This document shows positions 539-41,980 of a stretch of 64,000 nucleotides of DNA, in pieces (position 1 is the stretch's first letter; each line of letters starts with the position of its first letter). This DNA comes from Pseudidiomarina gelatinasegens (lineage in GTDB: Bacteria > Pseudomonadota > Gammaproteobacteria > Enterobacterales > Alteromonadaceae). Under the pieces are notes generated by a model. It did not search any database. It was not told the DNA's origin and worked only from the letters and a program-made list of their open reading frames with translations. The stretch covers positions 62,001 through 126,000 of the forward strand of contig NZ_RSFE01000007.1 of the NCBI RefSeq assembly GCF_004025325.1. The letters run 5' to 3'. A program made the position numbers and the translations under genes.

Positions 539-2178
539 GTCAGCGCATCCAGCGAGCCTATCAAATCACGAAAACCTTTTTAAGCTACGGTTTGGATGAG
601 ATTATCCCTGCCCGCTGGTTACCTTGGAGTATACGGGTTGGGCGTTATGCGCTGTTCTGGATGCCGAACAGGCATAAGCAAAAGTCAGCTGGTGCGCGTT
701 TACGGTTGGCATTAGAGTCACTTGGGCCGGTGTGGGTGAAGTTTGGCCAAATGCTGTCAACGCGGCGCGATTTACTGCCGCCTGATATCGCAAATGAGCT
801 GGCTAAATTACAAGATAAAGTTAAAGCATTTCCAGGCGAGAAAGCCCAACAACTCATTGAAAAAGCGCTGGATTTGAAGTCGATTGATGATGCATTTGAT
901 GACTTTTCTGTGCATCCGTTGGCTTCAGCATCGATTGCGCAAGTACATACCGCGCGTTTGAAGCGTGGTGACGATGCTGGCGCTGATGTTGTAATTAAAG
1001 TTATCCGGCCGGACATTCGTACCTCAATTGACGCCGATTTGCGGCTGATGGAAACTTTGGCTGGCGTGTTAGCAAGGCACCTGCCAGATGGTCGCCGACT
1101 GAAGCCGAAAGAGGTCGTCAAAGAATATCGAAAGACACTCCTTGATGAGCTTGATTTGCTGCGCGAAGCAGGCAACGCCATTCAATTAAAACGCAATTTT
1201 GATGATTCACCGCTGCTTTATATTCCAACGGTGTACAGTGATTATAGCCGTCATAATGTGATGGTCATGGAACGCATCGATGGCATTCCAGTCAGCGACG
1301 TGGACACGCTAATGGCCATGGGCGTGAATATGAAAATACTGGCTGAGCGCGGTGTGGAAGTATTCTTCACGCAAGTGTTTAGGGATAGTTTTTTCCATGC
1401 CGATATGCACCCAGGCAATATTTTTGTGTCACGCGACAATCCCGATAATCCGAGCTACTTAGGTATCGATTTTGGCATTGTCGGTACGCTTAACCGTGAT
1501 GATAAACGTTACCTAGCTGAAAACTTTCTGGCCTTTTTCAATCGTGATTATCGCAAGGTGGCTGAGCTGCATGTGGATTCAGGTTGGGTGCCAGCGCACA
1601 TCAATGTTGAAGACTTTGAGTCGGCCATTCGTACCGTGTGTGAACCTATATTTAATAAGCCGTTGGCAGATATCTCTTTTGGCCACGTGCTGGTTAATTT
1701 GTTTAATACGGCGCGCCGTTTTGAAATGGAAGTGCAGCCGCAGTTAGTGCTGTTACAAAAAACCTTGCTGTATGTAGAAGGGTTGGGCCGCACCTTATAT
1801 CCGCAGTTGGACTTATGGAAAACTGCAAAGCCATTTTTAGAAAAATGGATGCAGGAGCAGCTGGGCTGGCGTGCTGTGGTGCGCTCAGTAAAAGAAAATG
1901 CACCGTTTTGGGCAGAAAAGCTGCCTGAGATGCCAACCTTGCTTTATGATTATTTAAAACATCAGCAACCACATGCACAAGCTCAACAACAGTTGTTAGC
2001 TGAGCTACGCCAGGCGCAAAAGCTGCAGACGCGGCAAACCTGGTGGGCGACTATTACTGGCGGCTTAATTATTAGTACAACATTATTATTTGTAGCAAAC
2101 CAACCGGACTGGTTGGTTGCGTTAGTGGCAGCGACGACAGCAGTAAGTGGCGTTGTGGCCTGGCGACGCACTAACTAA
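535..2178 (+). CDS. ubiB: Ubiquinone biosynthesis protein kinase-like UbiB
   Basis: A 547-residue ABC1/ADCK/UbiB atypical kinase, close to the 546 residues of E. coli UbiB. It is needed for ubiquinone synthesis, probably as an ATPase acting on lipid intermediates at the inner membrane. The family signature KFGQ with the following helix is near residue 70. An Ala-rich nucleotide loop (ASASIAQV), the VIKV lysine, HADMHPGN and DFG (in IDFGIVG) follow in order. Two hydrophobic segments at the C-terminus fit membrane anchoring. The start is GTG, overlapping the ubiJ stop by 4 bases, which implies translational coupling. Confidence 0.96.
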
Positions 2179-2196
2179 AACCAAACGAGGCAAATT

Positions 2197-2400
2197 ATGG
2201 GCGGTGTAAGTCTTTGGCAATTATTGATTATTTTGGTGATTATTGTGTTGTTGTTTGGCACCAAACGACTACGCAATATCGGTTCTGATTTGGGCTCAGC
2301 AGTAAAAGGCTTTAAAAAGTCGGTGACTGATGAAGATGTTGAAAAGAAAGAACTGGACCAGAAAAAAGAACAAGCACCTGATCAAACAAAAGATAAATAA
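2197..2400 (+). CDS. tatA: Sec-independent translocase subunit TatA
   Basis: A 67-residue protein with one N-terminal membrane helix, the [10 protein letters not shown] hinge, an amphipathic helix with the GSAVKGFKK pattern, and an acidic and basic tail. TatA oligomers form the passage for folded proteins in the Tat pathway. It lies 18 bases after ubiB and 5 bases before tatB, so ubiJ-ubiB-tatABC is probably one transcript. An AACGAGG-like ribosome site precedes the ATG. Confidence 0.96.
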
Positions 2401-4822: not shown

Positions 4823-7637
<2,815 letters not shown>

Positions 7638-40499: not shown

Positions 40500-40769
40500 T
40501 TAATAATTGTCGCCGTTGTCACCGTTATCCTTTTTCTTCTTCTTTGGCTTTTCTTTTAATTTATCACTTTGTTCATTACGTTCTTTTTGTAAAGCTTCCT
40601 TCTCTGCCTTCATTTTGGCGCGTAAAGCTTCACGTTGATCTTGTTTTTCTTCAGCCTTGTCTTTGGCTTCTTCAGCAGTTTCCTGACCTTTCTTTGCATT
40701 TTGATCTTGTGCCACAGCGATACTTACTGTGCTTAGAGCTAATACCATAGCCAATAAGAATCGAATCAT
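40500..40769 (-). CDS. Small secreted Lys/Glu-rich protein
   Basis: An 89-residue protein with a Sec signal peptide (cleavage near VAQDQ) followed by about 65 residues that are nearly all Lys, Glu, Gln, Asp and Ala. It would form one charged helix or stay disordered, with a terminal DNGDNGDN. The minus-strand ribosome site TAGGAGG precedes the ATG. No family is recognised. A bidirectional terminator sits behind it. Confidence 0.7.
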   Translation of the reverse strand: MIRFLLAMVLALSTVSIAVAQDQNAKKGQETAEEAKDKAEEKQDQREALRAKMKAEKEALQKERNEQSDKLKEKPKKKKKDNGDNGDNY

Positions 40770-40879: not shown

Positions 40880-40916
40880 TTTACAAAAATGAAATGCTGC
40901 GACATGATATGTCGCA
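40880..40916 (+). promoter_or_regulatory. Promoter with a 19-base operator palindrome (regulator autoregulation)
   Basis: TGCGACAT (40898-40905), GAT, ATGTCGCA (40909-40916) is a perfect 19-base inverted repeat 50 bases before the WYL-type regulator gene. TTTACA (40880-40885) sits 17 bases upstream of CATGAT (40903-40908), so the palindrome covers the -10. This is the expected place for the regulator's own repressor site, also controlling the divergent small-protein gene. Confidence 0.6.
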
Positions 40917-40964
40917 ACTTAGGGTTAAGCTATGGCCCTGACGCCAATGACAAGGAGCATGTCA

Positions 40965-41483
40965 GTGCAGAGTGTTTTACGATACCTTATGATGTTGCAG
41001 CACGTACCCAGGCAACCCCATAAAATTGATGCGAAGACATTGCAACAACGTTTGTCTGAAAAGGGTGTCGAAATTAGTGTTCGCACCATTCAACGTAACC
41101 TGAACGAGTTATCTGAAGTGTTTCCGCTAACCACGGATGAACGCTCGAAGCCGTATGGCTGGAGTATTGCGCAGGGCGCGCCGCAATTGCCGTTTTTAAA
41201 TTTGGCACAACACACGCGCAACGGCGCCGTTGCTAAAGTGAAATTAAAATGCGCGGCGAAGTTATCCAATCTGATCGCCAACAACCCACTGCATCCGGAT
41301 CAAAAAATTGACCATAATGGGTCCCACTTTTACTTAACAGTAGATATGCCTATCAGTAATGATTTGGTTGCGTGGATACTGAGTTGTGGTGAGCATGCAG
41401 AGGTTCTTGAGCCCCCCGCCTTACGCGACGAAATTGAAACGCATGTAGAGCGAATGCATGCAAGCTATAACGGCAGGAATTAA
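40965..41483 (+). CDS. WYL-type transcriptional regulator without the WYL core
   Basis: About 172 residues. The N-terminal winged helix-turn-helix (SVRTIQRNLNELSEVFPL) is that of YafY/WYL regulators. The C-terminus (NDLVAWILSCGEHAEVLEPPALRDEI) is the WCX dimerisation extension. The roughly 100-residue WYL ligand-binding core normally between them is missing. AAGGAG at 40952-40957 best fits a GTG start at 40965; an ATG at 40932 would add 11 residues. A palindromic operator lies upstream. Confidence 0.78.
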   Translation: MQSVLRYLMMLQHVPRQPHKIDAKTLQQRLSEKGVEISVRTIQRNLNELSEVFPLTTDERSKPYGWSIAQGAPQLPFLNLAQHTRNGAVAKVKLKCAAKLSNLIANNPLHPDQKIDHNGSHFYLTVDMPISNDLVAWILSCGEHAEVLEPPALRDEIETHVERMHASYNGRN

Positions 41484-41485
41484 TT

Positions 41486-41947
41486 TCAGAGAGCTCTTTC
41501 GTGGCGTAATAGCCATTCTTTCTTATCCAAGCCTCCGGCATATCCTGTCAGCGTCCCATTGGCACCAATAACGCGGTGGCAAGGTACCACAATCGCGATA
41601 GGATTTCGGCTGTTTGCCATGCCAACCGCACGCACGCCTTTCGGGTTATCAATTGCGCGCGCAATATCGGCGTAACTTGCGGTATTGCCGTACGCGACAG
41701 TCTGCAATTGCCGCCAGACTCGCTGTTGAAATAGCGTCCCTTGAGCATTTAATGGCAAGTCGAAGTGATTGCGCTGGCCCGAGAAGTATTCGGTAAGTTG
41801 CTGCTGCGCGGTTTTTGTTACGGCGCAGGACGGATATTGCTGCGGCTGTGCAAATGAAATATCACAAATGCTGACACCGTCACGGCTTGTGACCGTGACA
41901 ATGCCAAGGGGACTATCTAAATAATCTTGAAACATGGTTTCTGACAT
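41486..41947 (-). CDS. ogt: Methylated-DNA-protein cysteine methyltransferase
   Basis: A 153-residue O6-alkylguanine-DNA alkyltransferase. The suicide active site is in VPCHRVIG (Cys123), with the DNA-reading YADIARAI helix and GMANSRNP loop upstream. It repairs O6-methylguanine by stoichiometric transfer. I place the start at the ATG at 41947; in-frame starts at 41959 and 41968 exist because of a 12-base repeat at the gene's 5' end. Confidence 0.92.
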   Translation of the reverse strand: MSETMFQDYLDSPLGIVTVTSRDGVSICDISFAQPQQYPSCAVTKTAQQQLTEYFSGQRNHFDLPLNAQGTLFQQRVWRQLQTVAYGNTASYADIARAIDNPKGVRAVGMANSRNPIAIVVPCHRVIGANGTLTGYAGGLDKKEWLLRHERAL

Positions 41948-41980
41948 AGTTACCACCATAGTTACCACCAGAGTTACCGT
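41945..41980. repeat. Three-copy 12-base tandem repeat at the uspA-ogt junction
   Basis: CATAGTTACCAC is perfectly repeated at 41945-41956 and 41957-41968, and a third divergent copy runs to 41980. The array covers the uspA stop and the ogt start. Read on the minus strand each unit adds four residues and a possible start codon to ogt. Confidence 0.85.

Follow-up and report, generated by a model that had tools for sequence, protein, structure and literature searches.

A mini-WYL regulator without its sensing core, and its candidate operator, in Pseudidiomarina and Idiomarina

The regulator gene and the palindrome in its promoter

The window, i.e., the whole stretch of 64,000 nucleotides of Pseudidiomarina gelatinasegens DNA that was analyzed, carries at positions 40965–41483 of the forward strand the gene of a predicted mini-WYL regulator, which lies between two genes of the reverse strand. 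The divergent neighbor is an ORF for a Lys/Glu-rich protein of 89 amino acids (40500–40769), and the convergent one is ogt, encoding an O6-methylguanine DNA methyltransferase (41486–41968; Pfam PF01035 and PF02870). An earlier note on this DNA had called the Lys/Glu-rich protein secreted. The ORF was confirmed, while the signal peptide is a putative one, by our own reading of a signal-like N-terminus.

The regulator ORF can be read from an ATG at 40932 as a protein of 183 amino acids. The description as a regulator holds, but a later start is preferred: the protein is most likely 172 amino acids long, from the GTG at 40965 to the stop codon at 41481–41483, because the ATG would fall on the -10/start-site region of the promoter. 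The GTG is preceded by a Shine-Dalgarno sequence, AAGGAG (40952–40957, forward strand), and the alignment of the 15 orthologues shows an ATG or GTG at the same position, after a Shine-Dalgarno-like stretch, in every one of them.

Of the proposed architecture, a winged helix-turn-helix (HTH) followed by a WCX domain with no WYL domain in between, the WCX domain and the lack of WYL were borne out by the domain searches. Residues ~89–169 (41229–41471, forward strand) matched the Pfam WCX model PF25583 with 47.2 bits (cut-off 23.9), the WYL model PF13280 gave no match to the protein at E-values up to 1, and HTH-type models matched below their cut-offs only. The winged-HTH part, residues ~1–67 (40965–41165, forward strand) with the recognition-helix region RTIQRNL, was delimited by alignment with full-length homologues; both the protein search and the alignment showed residues 1–80 to be clearly homologous to full-length WYL regulators. 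In each of the three mini proteins scanned by Pfam, WCX was present and WYL absent. The AlphaFold model has a mean pLDDT of 68, with values of 63–90 for ten-residue blocks of the WCX domain and weaker ones for the HTH part, whose helices stand in a low-confidence region. The predicted WCX domain superposes on that of DriD with a Z-score of 11.7 (rmsd 1.9, 86 positions aligned) and on that of PafBC with a Z-score of 9.3 (rmsd 3.9, 85 positions aligned).

Upstream of the gene, at 40898–40916, lies a perfect palindrome of 19 bases, TGCGACATGATATGTCGCA, with 8-bp arms and a 3-bp center (TGCGACAT-GAT-ATGTCGCA), exactly as first described. When the window was dinucleotide-shuffled 100 times, no match to the palindrome within 3 mismatches arose, which, together with its conservation among promoters, rules out a chance palindrome. 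The pattern TGCGWCA-N5-TGWCGCA was found in the promoters of all 15 mini genes (12 exact, three with one mismatch), 47–61 bp before the start codon. This conservation supports the view that the palindrome behaves as the operator of the regulator, and its symmetry implies a dimer. A one-mismatch copy at 7099–7117 of the window, TGCGCCAGGCTTTGTCGCA, is at chance level (1.17 expected within 2 mismatches).

The palindrome had been placed over the -10 of the predicted promoter. This promoter, TTTACA-17-CATGAT (40880–40908), was recovered by a consensus scan (9/12; 0.6 expected by chance). Its TTTACA box (40880–40885) does not vary among the 15 mini promoters and would be either the -35 assumed in the earlier note or part of the divergent promoter. 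A footprint of the same promoters revealed a conserved -10-like box, GTTAAGCT (about 40924–40931, forward strand; TATAAY in the relatives), 7–8 bp after the palindrome. Because this box is conserved and CATGAT is not, the palindrome probably overlaps the -35/spacer region, at about -38 to -20, rather than the -10, and transcription is predicted to start near 40937. Either way, the palindrome lies on the core promoter.

Relatives, loss of the core, and age of the operator

The protein search of 97 genomes gave matches in 24. The short form was present in 15 genomes of the Pseudidiomarina/Idiomarina genus, including that of the window (G000). The proteins of the other 14 are 46–78% identical to that of the window. 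In a scan of named genomes, 14 of the mini genes were traced to Pseudidiomarina species, to one metagenome-assembled genome, and to Idiomarina loihiensis SN11. A full-length homologue within the genus was found in Pseudidiomarina planktonica (G021; L020/L117), with WYL and WCX matches of 46.1 and 64.6 bits in Pfam, and eight genomes of other genera matched in frames of 245–368 codons, mostly full-length WYL proteins. When the 15 mini proteins were aligned with the full-length ones, the HTH and WCX parts were seen to be retained and ~150 residues between them to be missing. The 14 relatives thus carry the same mini gene without the core, and the identical architecture in 15 genomes rules out a sequencing gap or frameshift as the reason for its absence.

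No WYL domain was detected anywhere in the genome in six of the 15 mini genomes, including G000, so these six hold no partner sensor. A separate WYL subunit acting in trans was rejected for them on this ground, although the remaining nine genomes encode one to three WYL proteins each.

Ten homologous ORFs with a longer frame were examined. The exact operator lies upstream of those in G021, G040, and G035, and the operator was found with one mismatch in G032 and with two in G081; some of these full-length operators are followed by -10-like boxes similar to that of the mini gene. No operator was found within 300 bp upstream of the other five (in G091, G052, and G088, and two in G079), which are distant full-length homologues and count against our best explanation. 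G079 has just two exact copies in its genome, both within ~500 bp of its two homologues but off the usual promoter distance. Since several full-length WYL homologues carry the operator in their own promoters, this comparison of sequences dates the operator to before the core was lost. The homologue of G040 (L023, ORF 1513–2232, reverse strand), one of those with the exact operator in front, stops at 239 amino acids before the WCX domain and is perhaps a broken gene or the opposite kind of truncation.

The closest comparison within the genus is the P. planktonica homologue, which shares 62% identity with the mini protein over residues 7–91 and has the same operator in its own promoter; it differs in its length (329 amino acids), its WYL domain, and its location at another locus. 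Among the studied regulators, DriD of Caulobacter crescentus, a WYL transcription activator that is itself activated by ssDNA, is reported to have the consensus ATACGAC-N7-GTCGTAT and sites that overlap the -35 with a constant offset to the -10, according to the accessible part of that study (PMC12340889). As far as this part goes, the operator core CGAC-N7-GTCG and its spacing are identical in DriD and the mini regulator, the WCX fold is shared, and the mini operator, like the DriD sites, probably lies over the -35 with its spacing to the -10 fixed, while the outer bases of the half-sites differ (TG in the mini operator, ATA in that of DriD). DriD is an activator, whereas the sign of control by the mini regulator may be either. 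In contrast to DriD, the mini protein lacks the three-helix/WYL core, so that no ssDNA sensing is expected of it, and its operator copies are mostly intragenic. PafB/PafC, a mycobacterial DNA-damage activator for which the accessible text describes WCX as the dimer interface (PMC6789036), shares the WCX fold but is heteromeric and has WYL domains, and its sequence similarity to the mini protein is weak (E 0.34). CapW of CBASS and BrxR of BREX are described, in the parts of the reports at hand, as WYL repressors that act as dimers on promoter palindromes (PMC9122588, PMC9122601). They share the HTH and WCX parts with the mini protein, but have retained the WYL ligand domain and are located with defense systems, of which the scanned neighbors of the mini gene show none.

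Copies of the operator across the genomes

Further copies of the palindrome, for which the earlier note had proposed a search, form a genome-wide set. In 26 genomes of the genus, TGCGWCA-N5-TGWCGCA has 155 exact copies, compared to two of the reversed pattern. The 15 mini genomes hold 145 of them (1–22 each), while the 11 genomes without the gene hold 10 (0–3 each). The spacing is fixed: with strict arms and spacers of 0–30 allowed, 52 of 57 matches in five mini genomes have spacer 5, and with W arms it is found in 54 of 64 matches in three mini genomes and in none of three matches in three genomes without the gene. We regard this as the strongest control; neither codon use nor composition accounts for the spacing. 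Codon bias (in-frame ATxxVA, common in signal peptides) was rejected as the source of the intragenic copies, since spacer 5 alone, and no other in-frame spacer, is enriched. A mobile palindromic repeat is not favored either, for the five central bases vary and the copies occupy orthologous codons, although a tandem repeat in G020 does carry eight copies. Symmetric change of both half-sites was seen in one orthologous gene (G003) and was rejected as a rule (59 A/T, 28 A/A, 9 T/T, and 3 T/A).

When phylogeny is ignored, the association between gene and copies has a Mann-Whitney p of 6 × 10−5, or 2 × 10−4 without the exact own-promoter copies. When phylogeny is allowed for, 2–4 independent contrasts remain and the association is not significant; this test used a rough tree of one gene segment for 21 of the 26 genomes, in which G003 and G006 were dropped for want of an ORF call and the row of G013 was cut at another offset. 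There are exceptions to the association as well: G011 has the gene and the own-promoter copy only, G015 has two copies more, and G005 has three copies without the gene.

Such counts bear on the possibility that the protein is a local autoregulator of its own promoter, and perhaps of the divergent neighbor, with the dispersed copies being functionless or the sites of another factor. The own-promoter copy is indeed the only one kept in all 15 mini genomes, in G011 it has no exact companion, and the full-length relatives have few copies (0–4 exact ones in the eight longer-form genomes outside the genus, two in P. planktonica). A purely local role nevertheless fits poorly with the genome-wide fixed spacer of 5 and with the far smaller numbers of copies where the gene is absent, no other candidate factor turned up in passing, and we consider it unlikely.

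The location of the copies was surveyed for 122 of the 133 exact copies outside the own promoters of the mini genomes, from 14 genomes; three copies in G017, one in G018, five in G019, and two in G020 were missed. Called ORFs contain 107 of the 122, many of them core genes, and 15 lie outside. After removal of eight copies in spurious ORFs, 99 coding copies remained, 24 of which fall within the first 150 bases of the gene, compared to 15 expected. This mostly intragenic placement is unusual for an ordinary promoter regulator and is counted against our best explanation. It would suit a nucleoid or chromosome-structure protein better, whose sites serve the organization of the DNA and not the transcription of single genes, as the spread copies of matS and SlmA sites do. 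However, two local accumulations resemble regulation and make such a role still less probable than a local one. In G018, 14 of 21 copies are inside a polysaccharide stretch of 85 kb, where ~0.7 would be expected by length, the stretch having been chosen after the fact; it includes genes for RodZ, an RfaH/NusG-like protein, YjbH, Wza, a galE-like epimerase, and a CapD/WbpM-like protein. In G020, tandem repeats next to a galE-like gene pack eight exact copies into 861 bp. This array (L077 12860–14060; G020:C1, ~834.9–836.1 kb) is non-coding and interleaved with a second short palindrome of the TGTCAAATGACA type, and a silencer or a multi-site promoter is possible.

Several sites recur between genomes. 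Between mraZ and its divergent gene, a site within one mismatch was found in eight of the 15 mini genomes and in none of the eight others examined; in the remaining seven mini genomes it is degenerate or absent, which is counted against our best explanation. The gene divergent from mraZ encodes a CHASE-GGDEF-EAL protein by Pfam in G003 and looks alike in G004, G006, and G013. A gene for an M14 peptidase has an exact copy in six of nine orthologues; the copy is missing in G005 and in two mini genomes, G004 and G013. A gene of 560 amino acids without a Pfam match carries an exact copy in six mini genomes; no copy was detected at the corresponding position in G002 or in five genomes that lack the mini gene, in a comparison where the stretch was not located in 11 of 23 genomes. 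At same-residue pairs, third-base identity was 70/75 inside and 257/510 outside the site for the M14 peptidase, and 39/56 inside and 198/405 outside for the 560-amino-acid gene, both comparisons being biased by the use of orthologues with the site only.

Copies also recur at the start of a PilZ-HD gene (by Pfam) in three genomes, next to a gene that we read as flagellin-like, and one lies directly before a response-regulator-EAL gene in G008. The six exact copies of G000 comprise that of the own promoter, two in a polysaccharide locus, and three elsewhere. The remaining copies are in genes without an evident common theme, and the polysaccharide and c-di-GMP theme is to be taken as a leaning, not a test. 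Transposase-like ORFs were noticed in the polysaccharide locus of G000 (L057 12112–13070; G000:C11, ~346.1–347.1 kb), with an operator copy on one side of them and the RfaH-like gene on the other. A copy in G013 (G013:C4; L073 2350–2416) centers a hairpin, GGCCG...CGGCC, between convergent genes and may double as a terminator. In I. loihiensis SN11 (G015:C1, ~975 and 1595 kb; L175 and L176), two near-identical genes of more than 1300 codons contain the same intragenic copy; by appearance only, they are possibly phage tail genes.

A proposed signal-blind regulator and its neighborhood

The loss of the domain, the conservation and age of the operator, the genome-wide motif of fixed spacing, and the higher number of copies where the gene is present together suggest that a sensing regulator has turned signal-blind and acts at many places. 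The ancestor would have been a DriD-type WYL regulator that lost its sensing middle, the three helices and the WYL domain. The winged HTH would still read the ancestral operator TGCGAC-N7-GTCGCA and the WCX domain probably still forms the dimer, so DNA binding free of any signal is expected. By binding its own core promoter the protein would set its own level. It would also block or modulate transcription at the dispersed copies, which are mostly intragenic and lean toward the exopolysaccharide locus and c-di-GMP genes; the intragenic copies could serve as roadblocks, silencers, or structural sites. We infer such a signal-blind dimer, controlling its own level and occupying dispersed sites, as the best reading of the data, and hold it to be probable, though only slightly so. 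More tentatively, and with appreciable doubt, it may be proposed that by losing its core a local autoregulator gated by a signal became a DNA-binding protein that needs none and acts genome-wide. From the few exact copies per genome in the full-length relatives examined, the operator would then have multiplied to a maximum of 22, most of them in coding sequence and clustered at the exopolysaccharide locus and at c-di-GMP genes, and a nucleoid-like or biofilm-wide regulator would have arisen by domain deletion.

The promoter geometry allows either repression or activation. An auto-activator would, like DriD, bind over the -35 and recruit RNA polymerase to a weak promoter, and such a role would suit a palindrome that spans about -38 to -20 and keeps a nearly constant distance to the -10-like box, much as reported for the DriD sites (PMC12340889). 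On the other hand, CapW and BrxR are described as repressing from palindromes at or near the -10 of their promoters (PMC9122588, PMC9122601, as far as the accessible text goes). We regard autorepression as somewhat likelier than DriD-like autoactivation, and the auto-activator reading as quite improbable. For the signal-blind dimer, the operator is exact, old, common to full-length homologues of other genera, and near that of DriD, which makes the claim directly testable.

WYL regulators have been studied for what the WYL domain senses. A conserved natural lineage that has no sensor, but still an operator and a dimer domain, offers an experiment made by nature on what the rest of the protein does alone, and a possible case of a regulon growing after signal control was lost. 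The WYL family is known, and the sensorless lineage is a variation within it. The study of PafBC, in its accessible part, took the WYL model as the starting point for its classes of architecture (PMC6789036), which left no place for HTH-WCX proteins; surveys of this design are blind to such proteins. Among the literature matches listed, from a coverage without subscription papers and bioRxiv, there was no account of a sensorless HTH-WCX case, nor did phrases for a WYL-lacking protein yield one among the matches listed. WYL together with Idiomarina had no match in the full-text literature searched, none of the listed matches to both half-site strings was relevant by title, and the combination of WYL with exopolysaccharide, autoregulation, and palindrome led solely to a CRISPR review.

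The earlier note had also raised control of stress or phage defense, which the neighborhood does not bear out. Eight proteins were scanned with PADLOC, seven of the window at and around the locus and one full-length relative. The two WYL-family proteins among them, the mini regulator and the full-length relative, matched WYL models and a Cas3c model, one neighbor matched an 'effector' model at 14 bits, and the other five had no match. A defense island is thus unsupported among the proteins scanned, and the neighbors tested by Pfam are ordinary (DUF3667, O6-methylguanine methyltransferase). A phage-defense or DNA-damage regulator is very improbable: WYL regulators of CBASS and BREX exist, DriD is reported to answer DNA damage (PMC12340889, accessible part), and the adjoining ogt is a DNA-repair gene, but the sensing domain is gone, no defense neighbors were seen among the scanned proteins, the copies that recur are at envelope, polysaccharide, and c-di-GMP genes, and ogt stays in place without the mini gene.

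The Lys/Glu-rich gene is likewise kept in relatives without the mini gene. In eight of the 11 genomes that lack it, the Lys/Glu-rich gene adjoins ogt with nothing between (L219–L226), and this persistence side by side weakens a joint function of the regulator with either of them. As for the remaining loci, L218 is cut by a contig end, and L227 and L228 hold other, Ada-like genes. In several relatives, both with and without the mini gene, a second WYL-WCX protein of 353–359 amino acids with a different HTH is encoded a few kb from the mini/ogt locus (L234 4965–6026, L235 2179–3258, L236 1456–2517, L237 4153–5229, and L238 13812–14882).
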